This document shows, one piece after another, positions 2,701 through 8,232 of a stretch of 64,000 nucleotides of DNA. Below the pieces are notes generated by a model that was not told the origin of the DNA, did not search any database, and saw nothing but the letters and a program-made list of their open reading frames with translations. Source of the stretch: Bradyrhizobium sp. SK17 (GTDB lineage: Bacteria > Pseudomonadota > Alphaproteobacteria > Rhizobiales > Xanthobacteraceae); contig NZ_CP025113.1 in the NCBI RefSeq assembly GCF_002831585.1, positions 7,083,001-7,147,000 of the forward strand. Reading direction: 5' to 3'. How positions within the stretch are numbered: the stretch's first letter is position 1; the number at the start of each line of letters is the position of its first letter. The position numbers were made by a program, and so were the translations under genes.

Positions 2701-3223
2701 GTTTCCTCCCGCGTAATTGCGGGGCACGAACACCGGCCCCGAGACATCCGGTCGCACCATTACAGAGAAGCAACGACGATTGCCATTGCCCCTTTAGCAG
2801 GGGCTGAATGCGCTATTGCTGCACTGCAAAATCCGATCCGACGGTATCCGCTGCGGCTCTCGCAGCCGTCCGGTGACAGGGTGTGCGCCGGGTTTTCGGT
2901 GTCATCACCGGCGCCTGCGGTCGGTTGATCGGCGAGTGAGCCACGGCTCTTGCCACGTCGTCCGGGCGTAGGCCGGGACCCATACGCCGCAGCAGACGTT
3001 ATCGGCGGGACTCGTCGTTCCGGCATCGCGCACCAATTTTCATTTGGGGTAATGGGTCCCGGCCTGCGCCGGGACGACGGTGAGTATGTTGCGCAGTTTG
3101 AGCGTCAAACCACCGCGTTCTCGCGACATGATTTGTCCGAGACGTGCTTGTCGCTGGGACGATCTTCCGGGGTTCCGGGATCCGAACGTCAAGATCACGG
3201 CCGGAGCCGTGGCAGCCGTCGTG
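2701..3223. other. Intergenic region without a recognisable gene
   Basis: About 520 bases between dctP and the first tiny membrane ORF. It holds the dctP upstream region and one long inverted repeat (listed separately). No reading frame here has a credible ribosome site together with protein-like composition; frames that stay open are arginine-rich translations of the repeat. Confidence 0.5.
2957..3078. repeat. Dispersed intergenic inverted repeat
   Basis: Two ~27-base arms (2957-2983 and 3052-3078) are near-perfect reverse complements built on GTCGTCC-GGC-AGGCCGGGACCCAT, separated by ~68 bases. This GGCCGGGACCCAT type of palindrome is scattered through Bradyrhizobium-like genomes (known from memory, not searched). 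It sits 250 bases upstream of dctP and is not obviously part of its promoter. Confidence 0.7.
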
Positions 3224-3274
3224 ATGACGGCCATGCTGTTCGTGATCATGTTCGCTTTGATGATCGCCGTTTGA
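3224..3274 (+). CDS. Candidate 16-residue membrane peptide, copy A
   Basis: Encodes MTAMLFVIMFALMIAV, a single hydrophobic helix with no charged residue. Support is comparative and internal to the window: a second copy at 7864 encodes the same peptide with only two conservative changes, and all five base differences across the 16 codons fall on third positions. Upstream of both copies lies a CACGGC-4 nt-GCCGTG hairpin ending 13-14 bases before the ATG. Upstream of the ATG the two copies differ by a one-base indel, so the shared reading frame begins at this methionine. No good Shine-Dalgarno is at normal spacing (GGAG is 17 bases away). Function unknown. Confidence 0.4.
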   Translation: MTAMLFVIMFALMIAV

Positions 3275-3529
3275 CCGCCCGTCCGGCTCCGCTCAGGGCC
3301 GCCCTGGCGTTGCTAGCGATGTCCTCCATCCGCACGCCATGCACGCGCCTTGGCCGAGATCGCCGCAGATCCGGGCGCGCTCCCGCTCGAACAAGTTCGG
3401 CCATGTCGGGTCATAGCTGGAAATGACAATCGACCCGGCTCCGTATCTCTCCACCTGCGCCCCCCCCTGATCGTCCTTGACTGAACCGTATCACGCGGTG
3501 GCGCGTCTCGCAGCGCGCGACGACGGCTC

Positions 3530-3679
3530 ATGCGCCTGCGGCGTCGCTGGCGGGCGGGCAAAGCGACATCCGGCTTTCACCTGATCAGGCAGGGCGGCAA
3601 GGCCTTTTCGTTGGATGGTGCGATCGTCGACGACGAGAGTCTCATGCTCTCGGATGGTCGGCTCGGTCATCAGTCCTAG
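3530..3679 (+). CDS. Possible small ORF upstream of the PEP-CTERM gene
   Basis: A 49-codon frame starting MRLRRRWRAGKATSGFHL and continuing into a balanced, soluble-looking segment (SLDGAIVDDESLMLSDGR). The TAG stop lies inside the first CTAGGAC operator half-site. No strong ribosome site and no recognisable family. The second half looks protein-like, the first half does not. It may be a remnant. Confidence 0.15.
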   Translation: MRLRRRWRAGKATSGFHLIRQGGKAFSLDGAIVDDESLMLSDGRLGHQS

Positions 3680-3694
3680 GACGATCTAGGACTG
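3671..3694. promoter_or_regulatory. Palindromic operator-like site upstream of the PEP-CTERM gene
   Basis: Nine-base arms CAGTCCTAG (3671-3679) and CTAGGACTG (3686-3694) form an inverted repeat with a six-base spacer. The core 18 bases (3675-3692, CCTAGGACGATCTAGGAC) match 16 of 18 positions of a site at 6686-6703 in front of the response regulator gene. The core ends 67 bases before the PEP-CTERM ATG. The form (twofold symmetry, two CTAGGAC units offset by 10 bases) fits a NarL/FixJ-type regulator, so the neighbour at 6765 is the natural candidate; that link is inference. Confidence 0.6.
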
Positions 3695-3759
3695 CGGTCC
3701 GATTTACTTCGAATCGAAGGAATGCGCATCTCGGGCAATTGCTTAACTGGGAGATGAAA

Positions 3760-4479
3760 ATGAAATCAATAGTTCCCGCTCTGAGCTTGGCCACAACTGT
3801 ACTTTTGGCACTGGTTGGTTCGGCTCGAGCGAATCAAGTTTCAGTCGATATCAGTGGTGACGTCAACGCCAATGTCGCCACCTATAGCGGCGGCGGAAAT
3901 TACCCGCAGGGCGGCACGACACTGGCCATCAACGGCATCAACTTCAATTTGGCAAGTTACCCCGGCACGACGAACCTGGGGGCGGTGCAACTCAGCCCGG
4001 GGGGAACAACATCGGTGACGTTCGCCGTAGATATCCCCAACGTCGGAACAATCTACACGCTGCTCAACTCGGCCTTCGGTGCATTTGGCGGCGTCGTCGG
4101 GACGATCACATTCAATGGTTCAAGCGGGTCCGATGCGTTCAATCTGACGGAAGGAACCAACATCCGGGATCATTACTGTTGCGGCGGTTACAACGGCGTT
4201 GCGACCAACCTTTACGGCACCGCCAATTTCAACACTGACCGCCTCGATGCGCAAAGCTTCGATGTTTCCAACCTTGGCACGTTGACGAGCATCGTCTTTT
4301 CCGAAAGCAATGGTGGCGCGTACGGGGAGCCATTTCTGTCGGCGATTACGGCCGATACGGCGGTGGCCTCCGCTGTCCCCGAGCCTTCGAGCTGGGCGAT
4401 GATGCTGCTCGGCTTTGCAGGTATTGGCGTTATGGCCTATCGGCGCAAGCAGAGCGGACGTCGGCTTCACCTCGCCTGA
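3760..4479 (+). CDS. PEP-CTERM sorting-domain secreted protein
   Basis: 239-residue exported protein of unknown function. Sec signal peptide MKSIVPALSLATTVLLALVGSARA, then a Gly/Ser/Thr/Asn-rich beta-type body, and a C-terminal PEP-CTERM sorting signal: VPEPSSWAMMLLGFAG, a hydrophobic helix, then YRRKQSGRR. In known systems this tail is recognised by an exosortase in the inner membrane; no exosortase gene is in the window. ATG 3760 is preferred because GGGAG (3749-3753) lies six bases upstream; an ATG at 3754 directly abuts the GGGAG. Base composition is less GC-rich than the neighbours. Likely controlled through the operator at 3671-3694. Confidence 0.88.
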   Translation: MKSIVPALSLATTVLLALVGSARANQVSVDISGDVNANVATYSGGGNYPQGGTTLAINGINFNLASYPGTTNLGAVQLSPGGTTSVTFAVDIPNVGTIYTLLNSAFGAFGGVVGTITFNGSSGSDAFNLTEGTNIRDHYCCGGYNGVATNLYGTANFNTDRLDAQSFDVSNLGTLTSIVFSESNGGAYGEPFLSAITADTAVASAVPEPSSWAMMLLGFAGIGVMAYRRKQSGRRLHLA

Positions 4480-4498
4480 CCGGCGATCATCTCATCCG

Positions 4499-4524
4499 AA
4501 AGGCCGCCCTTGGGGGCGGCCTTT
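4499..4524 (+). terminator. Rho-independent-type terminator after the PEP-CTERM gene
   Basis: AAAGGCCGCCC (4499-4509) pairs with GGGCGGCCTTT (4514-4524) around a short loop, 20 bases after the stop codon. The T run is short, so strength is uncertain; the symmetric A/T flanks could serve both strands. Confidence 0.65.
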
Positions 4525-4687
4525 GCGCTGGCGACCGCAGCTCGAGTTTGCCGTTCGAACGTCGCACGGCAACGAGGCAATCGCATTTTCGGTTCCGATC
4601 GAAATCAGAACCGAAGCTTGTTCGTCGCGATCGATTTCGTCACACCCACAATGATGCTTTGTTCGCGGCCGCTCTTTCTGACCGACC

Positions 4688-6496
4688 TCACTCCACGGGC
4701 AGATACGATGATTTCGTCGACGCAAGAAGATTGCCGATCGCCGCCCGAAGCTTGCTGTTGGATACCGGTTTGTGGAGCAAGAGAAGGCCGCTGGCGGCCG
4801 CCTCCTGTAGCCGATCGGGAGCCGTATCTCCCGTGATCAGAACCGCAGGAATGATCTCGTTGTATTCCGATCGAAGCTTCTCGATCGCCTCGATGCCGTT
4901 CTCGTAGTTCCGCAGGCGATAATCGCAGATCACAAGATCCGGTTTGATCGGGCAAGCCGCGAGCAGTTGCAAGACCTCGCTGACCGAAGCTGCGGAGACA
5001 ACCTCGTGTCCCCAGCCCTTTAGCAGCGCGGACATCGCCTCTCGGATCGGAAGTTCGTCGTCGATCACGACCACCAAGGCGCGAGCAAGGGCTCCGCCCG
5101 GCTCCTGAAGCGGAACTTCCAGTTCCTCCAGCAGCGTCGCGCTCGCGAGGGGGACGTCGATCCGGAAGCAGGAGCCGCGGCCCGGTTGCGACATCACGGA
5201 GAGCCTGCACTCGAGCAAGTCCGTCAGGCGGCGGACGATGGCGAGGCCAAGGCCAAGGCCCTCAGCGCGATCACGTTCTGGATTTTCCAGCTGGTAGAAC
5301 TCTTCAAATATTCTTTGCTGTTGGTCGATCGGAATGCCCGGGCCGGTGTCCCAAACCTCGACCGACAACAACGAGCCGCGGCGCCGGCAACCCACCACGA
5401 CACGACCGCAATCGGTGTAGCGTACGGCATTGGCGATCAGGTTGCGCATGATCCGATCACCGAAGAGAACAGGATCGGTGAAGACGCTGGCGCTGCATGC
5501 ATGGAGCTTCAGCGCGATATTCTTGGTCGCTGCCAGTTCACGATAGTCGGAGCAGATCCGGCTCAGCAATGGATGGATCGGGAGGTTTTGGCGGCGAACT
5601 TCGACGACGCCGGCATCCAGTCTCGAGATCTCGAGCAGTGCGGCGAACAGACGATCAAGGGTGACCGCCGAACTTTCGATCAACGCGACCAGCCGTGTCG
5701 CCTCCGCAGGCAGTACGATACCTCGGAGTGCGCCGATCAGCAGCGAGAGGGCGTGCGCGGGCTGGCGCAGATCATGACTCGCGGCAGCCAGGAAACGGGA
5801 CTTTGCCCGATTGGCTTGATCCGCCAGTTCTTTCTGTTGCCGGAATCGTTCAGCCAGCTCAATCGACCAGACCCGCAGATCGACGGCGGCCTTGAAGTTG
5901 CGGTTGACGTTAAGCGCAAGCCCGCCCATCCCAACGATGTAAATCAACATGAAGAAGGCACTGATCTGTTGAATCTGGCTGGTGTCTCCCACCTTCAGCA
6001 GCACATAAGGAAACGTGGCCGGGAAGAACAGGGCACAGAACGACGGAAGATAGGAGCTGCGCGCCGGGATCGCACCGGTAGCGACGCCGAACGTCACTGC
6101 GAGCACGAGCACCTGAATTTCGAAGAAGCCCGCTGTTGCGAGATGGACAGTGGCCCATCCCCATGTGGAGCCTTCCACGAGGCTGATCGCCGTGAAGCTC
6201 CACGCCCAGCGCCGCCAGTTTGCGGCGGACGATGAGTCGCGATGATACATCCACCGGAGAACCAGGTGCGCGACGACGCATGCTGCGATGCATGTAACCC
6301 AAGCCAGGCTGGTCGCTGCGTCCGTCACGCCGAGATGGATCAGTGCCGTGACCAGAAGAACGGCCGTTGTTGCCGTAGCCAGCCCGTTGAGAACGACATT
6401 CCTGAACAGCGCGGCAACCTGCTCCGTGCGCAGAAGCGAGCGATGTTCGGGCAGAATGAAGGAGACCTCGGCTCCGGCCTGATCCGTCACGTTCAT
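4688..6496 (-). CDS. Membrane hybrid sensor histidine kinase with C-terminal receiver
   Basis: 602 residues. The first ~190 residues hold about six hydrophobic segments with no clear extracytoplasmic domain. A coiled region leads to a HisKA H-box (FLAAASHDLRQPAHALSLL), then a HATPase domain with N-box NLIANAVRYTD, G1 box DTGPGIP, F box FEEFYQ and G2 box GLGLGLAIVRR. The C-terminal ~125 residues are a receiver domain (VVVIDDELPIREAMS, phospho-acceptor in DLVICDYRL, conserved T in LITGD, K in LLHKPVS). ATG 6496 begins a sensible cytoplasmic N-terminus; the open frame extends upstream to 6745 but that part is not protein-like. Divergent from the regulator at 6765, with the operator between them. 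Probably senses an envelope or membrane signal. Confidence 0.9.
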   Translation of the reverse strand: MNVTDQAGAEVSFILPEHRSLLRTEQVAALFRNVVLNGLATATTAVLLVTALIHLGVTDAATSLAWVTCIAACVVAHLVLRWMYHRDSSSAANWRRWAWSFTAISLVEGSTWGWATVHLATAGFFEIQVLVLAVTFGVATGAIPARSSYLPSFCALFFPATFPYVLLKVGDTSQIQQISAFFMLIYIVGMGGLALNVNRNFKAAVDLRVWSIELAERFRQQKELADQANRAKSRFLAAASHDLRQPAHALSLLIGALRGIVLPAEATRLVALIESSAVTLDRLFAALLEISRLDAGVVEVRRQNLPIHPLLSRICSDYRELAATKNIALKLHACSASVFTDPVLFGDRIMRNLIANAVRYTDCGRVVVGCRRRGSLLSVEVWDTGPGIPIDQQQRIFEEFYQLENPERDRAEGLGLGLAIVRRLTDLLECRLSVMSQPGRGSCFRIDVPLASATLLEELEVPLQEPGGALARALVVVIDDELPIREAMSALLKGWGHEVVSAASVSEVLQLLAACPIKPDLVICDYRLRNYENGIEAIEKLRSEYNEIIPAVLITGDTAPDRLQEAAASGLLLLHKPVSNSKLRAAIGNLLASTKSSYLPVE

Positions 6497-6685
6497 GCTG
6501 GCCTGTTCGGCATCTCGTTCAAACTCGTTCGGAACGGTTGCATGCGATATCGCCGCAGCCGAAGCATACCACGTTCTCGACGATAGAGGCCGGGGGCTGG
6601 GGCGCATTCGTGCGCCACTCGCAGCCGAACGCCGTGTTTCGCAGAGTGTCGCGGCTGCACGTCGCCAGGACAGCTTCGAGATAGA

Positions 6686-6703
6686 CCTAGGACGTCCTAG
6701 GAC
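6686..6703. promoter_or_regulatory. Palindromic operator-like site between kinase and regulator genes
   Basis: Contains a perfect 16-base palindrome CCTAGGACGTCCTAGG (6686-6701), extended to CCTAGGAC at the right. It matches the site at 3675-3692 at 16 of 18 bases and ends 61 bases before the regulator ATG, almost the same distance as in front of the PEP-CTERM gene (67). It lies 189 bases from the kinase ATG on the other strand. Most simply an autoregulatory site for the response regulator; binding is not shown. Confidence 0.62.
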
Positions 6704-6764
6704 CTTGTGCCCGCCACGGGCCCCTGCCTTGCCGACCAGACACATCCTGCGCCATAGTCGCGGG

Positions 6765-7442
6765 ATGAAGATACTGGTCGTCGATGATCATCCGGTCATG
6801 CTCGAGGGGCTATCCGCGCTGCTGCGCCAGGAAGGACCGCAGACCATCATCGTGCAAGCCAGCAGCGCAACGCAGGCGCTCGCCGCCGTCGAGAGCCACC
6901 AAGACCTCGATATCGTCGTGCTGGACCTGATGATGCCAGGGGCAAGTGGATTGTCGACGATCTCTGAGATCGGTCGCGCGCGGCCCGAACTCCCCGTTGT
7001 CGTGCTCTCGTCGTCCGAGGATCCCATCGACGTCCGCAACGCCTTGTCTCAAGGTGCGCTTGGCTACGTGCCAAAATCGGCCAGCCGGACCACGCTACTC
7101 TCCGCCATTAGCCTCGTGATGAATGGTGAACTCTACATTCCACCGTTGATGCTCAACCAGATCGCGACCGCCAGGCCCGTTGCCGACCGACCGACGCCAC
7201 GCGCATTGCTGACACCCCGCCAGATCGACGTTCTCCGTCGTATCGGTGAAAGCCTGCCCAACAAGACCATTGCTTATGAAATGGATCTCTCGGAGAAAAC
7301 CGTCAAGGCGCACATCACTGCGATCTTCAAGGCCCTCAACGTCGTCAATCGCACACAGGCAGCCGCAGCCGGCCGAGACCTTGGCCTGATCCGGCCGACG
7401 CGAGAGGCGGACGTGGCGCGGAAGCCGATGGATCGACCGTGA
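6765..7442 (+). CDS. NarL/FixJ-family response regulator
   Basis: 225 residues. N-terminal receiver starts MKILVVDDHPVMLEGL, with phospho-acceptor Asp in DIVVLDLMMPG, conserved Ser in VVLSSSE and Lys in GYVPKSAS. A linker leads to a LuxR-type helix-turn-helix (LTPRQIDVLRRIGESLPNKTIA to SEKTVKAHITAIFKAL). The start at 6765 fits the family exactly; upstream in-frame sequence is not part of the fold. Its natural partner is the divergent hybrid kinase. The stop overlaps the start of the next small gene (GTGA), so the two are probably co-translated. Confidence 0.92.
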   Translation: MKILVVDDHPVMLEGLSALLRQEGPQTIIVQASSATQALAAVESHQDLDIVVLDLMMPGASGLSTISEIGRARPELPVVVLSSSEDPIDVRNALSQGALGYVPKSASRTTLLSAISLVMNGELYIPPLMLNQIATARPVADRPTPRALLTPRQIDVLRRIGESLPNKTIAYEMDLSEKTVKAHITAIFKALNVVNRTQAAAAGRDLGLIRPTREADVARKPMDRP

Positions 7443-7750
7443 ACACAATCGGCACGATCCGAGCCGTGGGAATGACGGCAATCGCTTCGCTCTGCGTCGC
7501 GTCCTGCGGGCCGCGGCTCCAGTGTCGGCTGGCATCCGGAGGAGATTGGTTTCCGGTGCCGGTTTTCAGCGAAGTCTCGCAGGCGGCCGCCGCCGTGCAC
7601 GGTTCGCTCGCATGCGATGTGGTGTATCGCATCGACAAGCGCGACTATGTTCTTGGCGGATGCAATCGTGATCCTGTCGGTCTCTGGCCGAAGCAAGAAG
7701 GACGTCTGCACGAGGGAACGGGACGGCGGCAGTTGATCTGCAAGGAATGA
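7439..7750 (+). CDS. Putative small lipoprotein coupled to the response regulator
   Basis: 103 residues starting at a GTG that overlaps the regulator stop codon. The N-terminus (MNTIGTIRAVGMTAIASLCVASC) looks like a short lipoprotein signal with a lipobox ending at Cys23, though the lipobox is not canonical. The rest contains four more Cys (CRLAS, LACDV, GGCNR, LICKE) which could form disulphides in the periplasm. No family recognised. Its reality rests on the overlap with a confident gene and on the lipoprotein-like start. Confidence 0.45.
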   Translation: MNTIGTIRAVGMTAIASLCVASCGPRLQCRLASGGDWFPVPVFSEVSQAAAAVHGSLACDVVYRIDKRDYVLGGCNRDPVGLWPKQEGRLHEGTGRRQLICKE

Positions 7751-7863
7751 AGCCCAACAGCCAGATGATGGTCTCGATCCTTCAGGGAGCTCCCGTTGCG
7801 GTGTGGTCTTGGCCGGATACCGAGACACGGCGAGATCACGGCTGGAGCCGTGGTGGCCTCATC

Positions 7864-7950
7864 ATGACAGCCATGCTGTTCGTGATCATATTGGCATTGA
7901 TGATCGCCGTAGTCGGCGACGAATGCCGCGAACTCGATCTCGGCGAATGA
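7864..7950 (+). CDS. Candidate 28-residue membrane peptide, copy B
   Basis: Starts MTAMLFVIILALMIAV, the same helix as the ORF at 3224 except Met9 to Ile and Phe10 to Leu, followed by a 12-residue polar, acidic tail (VGDECRELDLGE) that copy A lacks. All base differences across the shared 16 codons are at third positions (ACG/ACA, ATG/ATA, TTC/TTG, GCT/GCA, GTT/GTA). The same small hairpin lies just upstream. An in-frame start at 7747 would give 67 residues and overlap the preceding ORF, but its extra N-terminus is out of frame with copy A. Function unknown. Confidence 0.42.
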   Translation: MTAMLFVIILALMIAVVGDECRELDLGE

Positions 7951-7958
7951 TCTACGCG

Positions 7959-8165
7959 CTACGGAATCTTTGCGCGAAGCACCCGACGCGCGTCTTCAAG
8001 TACACGGATGAGGCGATCCAGTTCCTCTGCCCCGAGGAAAACCTCGACATCTCCGTTCTTCCGCAGTGACACAGCGAGCCCCACCGCGTCTCCGCTCACG
8101 CGGACAAGTACCACCCCTTCATCGCCGCTGTCCTTGTCGATGAAACTGATTGGCGGAATATTCAT
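7959..8165 (-). CDS. Small hypothetical protein
   Basis: 68 residues, MNIPPISFIDKDSGDEGVVL onward, with alternating hydrophobic strands and an amphipathic C-terminal helix (EELDRLIRVLEDARRVLRAK). A GGGAG ribosome site lies at good spacing upstream of the ATG at 8165. Composition is convincingly protein-like. No domain recognised; ends 8 bases from the opposing membrane peptide ORF. Confidence 0.65.
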   Translation of the reverse strand: MNIPPISFIDKDSGDEGVVLVRVSGDAVGLAVSLRKNGDVEVFLGAEELDRLIRVLEDARRVLRAKIP

Positions 8166-8232
8166 GACTCACTCCCGTGGTCCGAGGCGATGAGGATAGA
8201 GCGAGTTGCCACCGCGATCTCCGCTCAAACAG

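Follow-up and report, generated by a model that had tools for sequence, protein, structure and literature searches.

Within a 64,000-nucleotide stretch of Bradyrhizobium sp. SK17 (contig NZ_CP025113.1, positions 7,083,001 to 7,147,000 of the forward strand; hereafter the window), two short related stretches, designated copy A and copy B (Table 1), are very probably damaged and unequal copies of a gene that encodes a small membrane protein with one helix, which is typically present as a single copy in Bradyrhizobium and is absent from the libraries searched. The family to which they belong exists and is conserved as a protein. It is named the 'KITAGAV' family and is defined here by an alignment (A3) with a 37-residue core; its members are single-helix proteins of approximately 37-42 residues. 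A first-pass annotation, made from the DNA letters, had described the two stretches as open reading frames (ORFs) for twin micropeptides flanking a signalling locus. The coding signal is real, and the two stretches probably do not form a pair of functional twin micropeptides. The window copies are of little consequence on their own; they point to an apparently undescribed, genus-wide family of a size below that of normal gene calling, which has been kept by selection in most of the sampled Bradyrhizobium genomes.

A small protein family conserved in Bradyrhizobium

When the copy B region was used as a DNA query against 98 genomes of the genus, its own included, 26 genomes matched. A full-length unit was found in one other genome (G070, 80% identity), and the remaining matches consisted of shorter parts of the unit in a few cases and of the DNA of the copy B tail only in many. 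The short ORFs of the relatives share the same terminal helix and start upstream, typically with M-R-x-T-T-x-K-E-K-A-K-I-x-A-G-A. A profile built from six rows matched 87 of 117 genomes (E<=0.01), and a profile of 35 rows matched 194 of 265 genus genomes (E<=1e-3), 187 of them once and 7 twice. In the sample of the taxonomic family, 9 of 198 genomes and 3 of 47 genera matched, the two matches outside the genus lying within ORFs of 436 and 937 residues; among genomes sampled across the order, 7 of 297 matched, from 2 of 122 genera. Tblastn searches against plasmids gave no match. In the genomes sampled, the family is nearly confined to Bradyrhizobium.

The evidence for conservation as a protein comes from a set of 67 members (71 loci minus 4 dropped; copy A included). 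The ratio of nonsynonymous to synonymous substitution rates (dN/dS) over the collected copies, which the first-pass annotation had proposed as a check, has a median of 0.35 over 788 non-independent pairs of at least 70% identity, with quartiles of 0.23 and 0.51 and with 97% of the values below 1. Differences over family pairs at codon positions 1, 2 and 3 number 3116, 1993 and 5985. Purifying selection was detected for the family as a whole and for copy A against four relatives; the A-like genes show dN of 0.07-0.30 and dS of 0.47-3.1, and copy A and G070, compared over 27 codons, show dN of 0.07 and dS of 0.64. In 61 of the 67 members the aligned start codon is ATG. In a short-sequence tree of 81-base cores, copies A and B group with the members from G070, G389, G431 and G337 (support 0.94). 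The tree leaves the sisterhood of A and B unsettled, as A agrees with B at 69 of 80 bases and with G070 at 68 of 81.

The first-pass annotation knew of no described family, and this agrees with the library searches: Pfam and NCBIfam gave no match at the curated cut-off, and PADLOC gave no match to family members. PHROGs gave one weak match for 1 of 35 members, and two PDB matches (E 0.39 and 0.62) are taken as chance. DUF7186 (PF23815) shows a weak helix match, with 1 of 35 members at E<=0.01 (best E 0.0042) and with another member at E 0.0028, but its 17.9 bits fall below the curated cut-off of 27, and the resemblance is probably due to shared hydrophobic composition. A literature search, within limited paper coverage, found no description of the family. 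For Bradyrhizobium USDA 110, the parts considered of a report on newly annotated small ORFs describe stabilising selection on some of them and two new repeat elements (PMC5082802). Those small ORFs come from the same genus and fall in the same size class as the 'KITAGAV' family, which is not described in these parts of the report.

Two unequal copies in the window

Both ORFs of the first-pass annotation were found where it had placed them (Table 1), and its count of base differences proved exact: the 16 codons of A 3224-3271 and B 7864-7911 differ at five bases, all in third positions, of which three are silent and two are replacements (M/I and F/L). By chance, five of five differences would fall at one fixed codon position with a probability of 0.004; if each of the three registers is allowed, the probability is 0.012. 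As the reading frame was picked post hoc, this result is suggestive when taken alone; it is the genus-wide family that settles the coding question for both stretches. The coding signature claimed for them is thus borne out by a family under purifying selection, and the signal is, as was noted, far under gene-calling size. A pair of 52 nt (3219-3270/7859-7910, 88% identical) is preceded by a second pair of 32 nt (3186-3217/7827-7858, 84% identical), the register of which is shifted by one base. Of 86 aligned bases, 73 are identical, and among the 13 that differ, 3, 2 and 8 stand at codon positions 1, 2 and 3, respectively; consequently, divergence at third positions only holds within the helix but not once the upstream part is included. 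In-frame family similarity begins 24 codons upstream of ATG 3224, and a unit of 16 residues starting at this ATG is therefore rejected.

Copy A retains approximately 40 family codons and the stop. It matches the whole-core profile at positions 2-36 of 37 (E 5.2e-16) and is the sole long family match in its own genome by profile search. The 35 profile rows include copy A, and the resemblance free of this circularity is that to G070, with 75% identity over 40 amino acids. Its frame is open upstream, extending from stop to stop over 3053-3274. An ATG at the family N-terminus is lacking, as a dispersed repeat occupies its place. With window 3050-3170 as query, 64 matches were found in the own genome, a count that includes the query site and its inverted arm. 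Many of them are confined to 3050-3095, the hairpin-arm end of the repeat, and 10 others extend to at least 3139. When these longer copies were aligned, 9 of 10 agreed with the window to approximately 3151 and then diverged; family similarity begins at approximately 3152. Another genome (G010) holds a repeat copy that matches window 2975-3148 at 83%. The apparent starts in relatives, judged by eye, are TTG (G070), GTG (G389) and ATG (G337), and they lie just upstream of approximately 3152, where the repeat ends; copy A therefore appears to have lost its own start.

In copy B, the profile matches in frame at positions 20-36 only (E 0.017) and in the neighbouring frame at positions 12-19 (E 2.4), so that no whole-core match exists. 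Because one base is missing at approximately 7858/7859, the N-terminal part (GEITAGAVVAS) and the helix lie in different frames; a family start in frame is thus absent, and the native stop has been lost. When changes were polarised against three relatives, copy A showed two derived changes, both silent and at third positions, and copy B showed eight, distributed 3/1/4 over codon positions 1, 2 and 3, in addition to the deletion. The changes in copy B look relaxed as judged from this distribution. Being frameshifted and drifting, copy B is not the equivalent twin of copy A that had been proposed, and the pattern of third positions only seems to reflect a short stretch with an ancestry under selection, rather than two working twins, given the derived changes of B at all codon positions and its deletion against the two silent changes of A.

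The tail of the copy B ORF was not seen in relatives; its motif DECRELD occurs in no fetched locus apart from the B site of the own genome. The tail DNA at 7912-7946 resembles antisense DNA of ATP-dependent DNA ligase genes of relatives (approximately 85-89% over 33-35 nt). Pfam identifies one match (L006) as an ATP-dependent DNA ligase, and a ligase reading frame was present in 3 of 5 inspected match loci and not in 2; the own genome holds further matches of 18-25 nt. This is a weak hint that the tail may be an antisense piece of a DNA ligase gene, either scrap at a recombination joint or a chance match.

A hairpin with the arms CACGGC/GCCGTG had been described as preceding both copies. The arms exist (3196-3201/3206-3211 in A and 7837-7842/7847-7852 in B), but they are family codons and not a separate element, encoding I-T-A-G-A-V of copy A. 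As an RNA element the hairpin was rejected, with fold z-scores of -0.87 (A) and -1.77 (B) and with 38 and 11 of 200 shuffles folding at least as well. The arms also pair no better than expected from the codons used: 58 distinct sequences have a mean of 5.05 pairs, against 4.99 with codons shuffled within amino acids (P 0.18). All six arm positions can pair in 19 of 67 members, as expected from the A-G-A codons.

Alternative readings and a possible function

Almost no damage is seen within the frame of copy A, and it may therefore still be expressed from ATG 3128 or from an internal start. On this account the repeat would have supplied a new start for a 48-residue product, or an internal GTG or ATG would be used, and B alone would be dead. 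The account is a sub-case of the damaged-copies explanation, with which its probability overlaps, and it is possible but less probable than its opposite. It is favoured by the retained frame and stop, by the position of copy A as the only long family match in the genome and by its merely silent derived changes; two changes are, however, too few to demonstrate constraint after the damage. No Shine-Dalgarno-like sequence was seen by eye before ATG 3128, no sigma-70-type promoter was called before copy A, and the N-terminus would have to come from the repeat. A single-sequence structure prediction of the 48-residue product places a helix at residues 19-47 (mean predicted local distance difference test score 78; approximately 60 over the first 20 residues).

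The twin micropeptides of the first-pass annotation, of 16 and 28 residues, would flank and serve the kinase/regulator locus between them. The five third-position differences in the helix speak for this proposal, which is nevertheless very improbable: family similarity extends upstream of both ATGs, the B tail is found nowhere else, and other family loci lack this kind of neighbour. The window kinase and regulator gave no match (E<=1e-3) at 9 of the 10 family loci with long flanks (L149-L158), L152 having one weak kinase match of 81 residues approximately 7.6 kb away, so that the signalling locus is not a recurrent flanking partner. A search of 256 other genus genomes with the regulator DNA, in which the two best first-look candidates of each were scored, likewise found nothing at E<=1e-20.

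Type I toxins are small and contain a single hydrophobic helix, and the size and helix of the family would fit a membrane toxin of this kind under antisense RNA control, with A and B as disarmed copies. This reading is also highly unlikely in view of the copy number, which is one in 187 of the 194 genomes with a match, the lack of any PADLOC match, and the recurrent neighbourhood, as 35 of 67 members stand beside the same chemoreceptor and/or methyltransferase gene. No Rfam family reached the gathering threshold at A or B, and among known RNA families the 64-kb window matches only two tmRNA models at this threshold. That the stretches are a noncoding dispersed repeat which looks coding by chance is exceedingly improbable: a genuine dispersed repeat adjoins A, but the A/B sequence itself has only two copies in the genome (E<=0.001) and the family pairs show the excess of third-position differences given above, not the many copies with an even spread over codon positions that the first-pass annotation had named as the mark of such a repeat.

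Returning to the explanation by damaged copies of a single-helix protein gene, several points weigh against it or limit it. A profile match is missing in 71 of the 265 genus genomes, where the genus, family and order searches scored a capped number of candidates per genome, so that copy counts are lower bounds and absences are not proof. One weak order-level match lies outside the genus (G571, E 2.1e-4, in a 32-residue open frame of a genome that is 56% complete), and one listed match (G105) has an internal TAG. A Shine-Dalgarno-like motif precedes just 33 of the 67 members. The polarised counts are small (2 against 8), three changes being unpolarised, and the damage within the frame of copy A is almost nil. 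The membrane location, the orientation and the partner binding of the protein are deduced from its sequence.

The intact protein would be an inner-membrane protein whose basic N-terminus (KEKAK) faces the cytoplasm and whose helix, with its small-residue run A-G-A-V-x-A, packs against a larger membrane protein. We infer that it may function as a membrane accessory or regulatory subunit. AcrZ, MgrB, KdpF and CydX are examples of small bacterial proteins that cross the membrane once and either regulate a larger membrane protein or accompany it. The 'KITAGAV' family resembles them in having less than approximately 50 residues, one hydrophobic helix and little else; the likeness is one of size and build, and the 'KITAGAV' family differs in being nearly restricted to one genus. 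In this lineage the gene would have been duplicated, and one or both copies would have been damaged as a 5.4-kb insert with kinase, regulator and PEP-CTERM genes formed between dctP and leuA. A fuller scenario, tentative and rather unlikely to hold in all its parts, is that of a genus-restricted, usually single-copy inner-membrane microprotein with its own partner, in which the repeat hit the start and gave rise to a re-started gene, and the other copy degenerated at the opposite end of a recently gained signalling cassette. The narrow range of the family, together with the chemoreceptor/methyltransferase neighbour in about half of the members, makes it a specific and testable subject for research on small proteins of nitrogen-fixing symbionts.

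The insert and the gene neighbourhood

In the window, 5.4 kb separates dctP and leuA (insert at approximately 2832-8222), with copy A near one end and copy B near the other; the PEP-CTERM, hybrid kinase and LuxR-type regulator genes lie within it. The spacing is approximately 150-260 bases in 5 of 10 fetched relatives; in G003 a LysR gene lies between the two genes, and in 4 of 10 no dctP was seen in the sequence fetched. In G070 the A-like gene adjoins a LysR gene and leuA, and the window copies may therefore descend from a gene that was already at this place. Neighbouring genes were named by Pfam, and the features are collected in Table 1. A second regulator, 68% identical to that of the insert, is encoded elsewhere in the own genome.

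Table 1. Features of the window around copies A and B
Feature	Position	Strand	Remarks
Dispersed repeat	2950..3151	.	hairpin arms 2956-2983/3052-3079; contains ATG 3128, the sole ATG in frame upstream of the copy A family part
Possible re-started ORF of copy A	3128..3274	+	48 aa; start inside the dispersed repeat; open frame
Copy A	3152..3274	+	family reading frame RWDDLPGFRDPNVKITAGAVAAVVMTAMLFVIMFALMIAV and stop (3272-3274); native start codon missing
First-pass ORF A	3224..3274	+	16 aa; C-terminal part of the family helix
PEP-CTERM protein gene	3745..4479	+	PF07589, E 2.5e-7; stretch scanned, true start may lie a few codons downstream
Hybrid sensor histidine kinase gene	4688..6496	-	HisKA, HATPase, receiver
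LuxR-type response regulator gene	6765..7442	+	PF00072, PF00196
Small ORF	7439..7750	+	103 aa; lipoprotein-like by eye; no Pfam match
Copy B	7827..7911	+	family-homologous stretch broken by a one-base deletion; aligner places the gap between 7858 and 7859
First-pass ORF B	7864..7950	+	28 aa; helix and tail

With flanks of approximately 1.5 kb on each side, the chemoreceptor and/or methyltransferase gene was scored from one reference locus, and 32 of the 67 members have neither. A conserved block around TTCAACAT(G)A occurs no more than 60 bases before the start in 23 of 67 members (L037, L044, L047 and others); it is possibly a promoter or leader common with the divergent methyltransferase gene. 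At one family locus (L154, 7471-7557), a 31-residue match to the window PEP-CTERM motif lies approximately 300 bases from the family member. An ORF at 7959-8168 (68-69 amino acids) without a Pfam match adjoins leuA, and a relative with 71% identity stands beside leuA in G004. Near-identical palindromes, CCTAGGAC-GAT/GTC-CTAGGAC, are found at 3675-3692 and 6686-6703, and with up to two mismatches the pattern occurs only at these two places in 64 kb (4 strand matches, 0.05 expected). The first lies ahead of the PEP-CTERM gene and the second between the kinase and regulator genes, which diverge; the two are possibly binding sites of the regulator.

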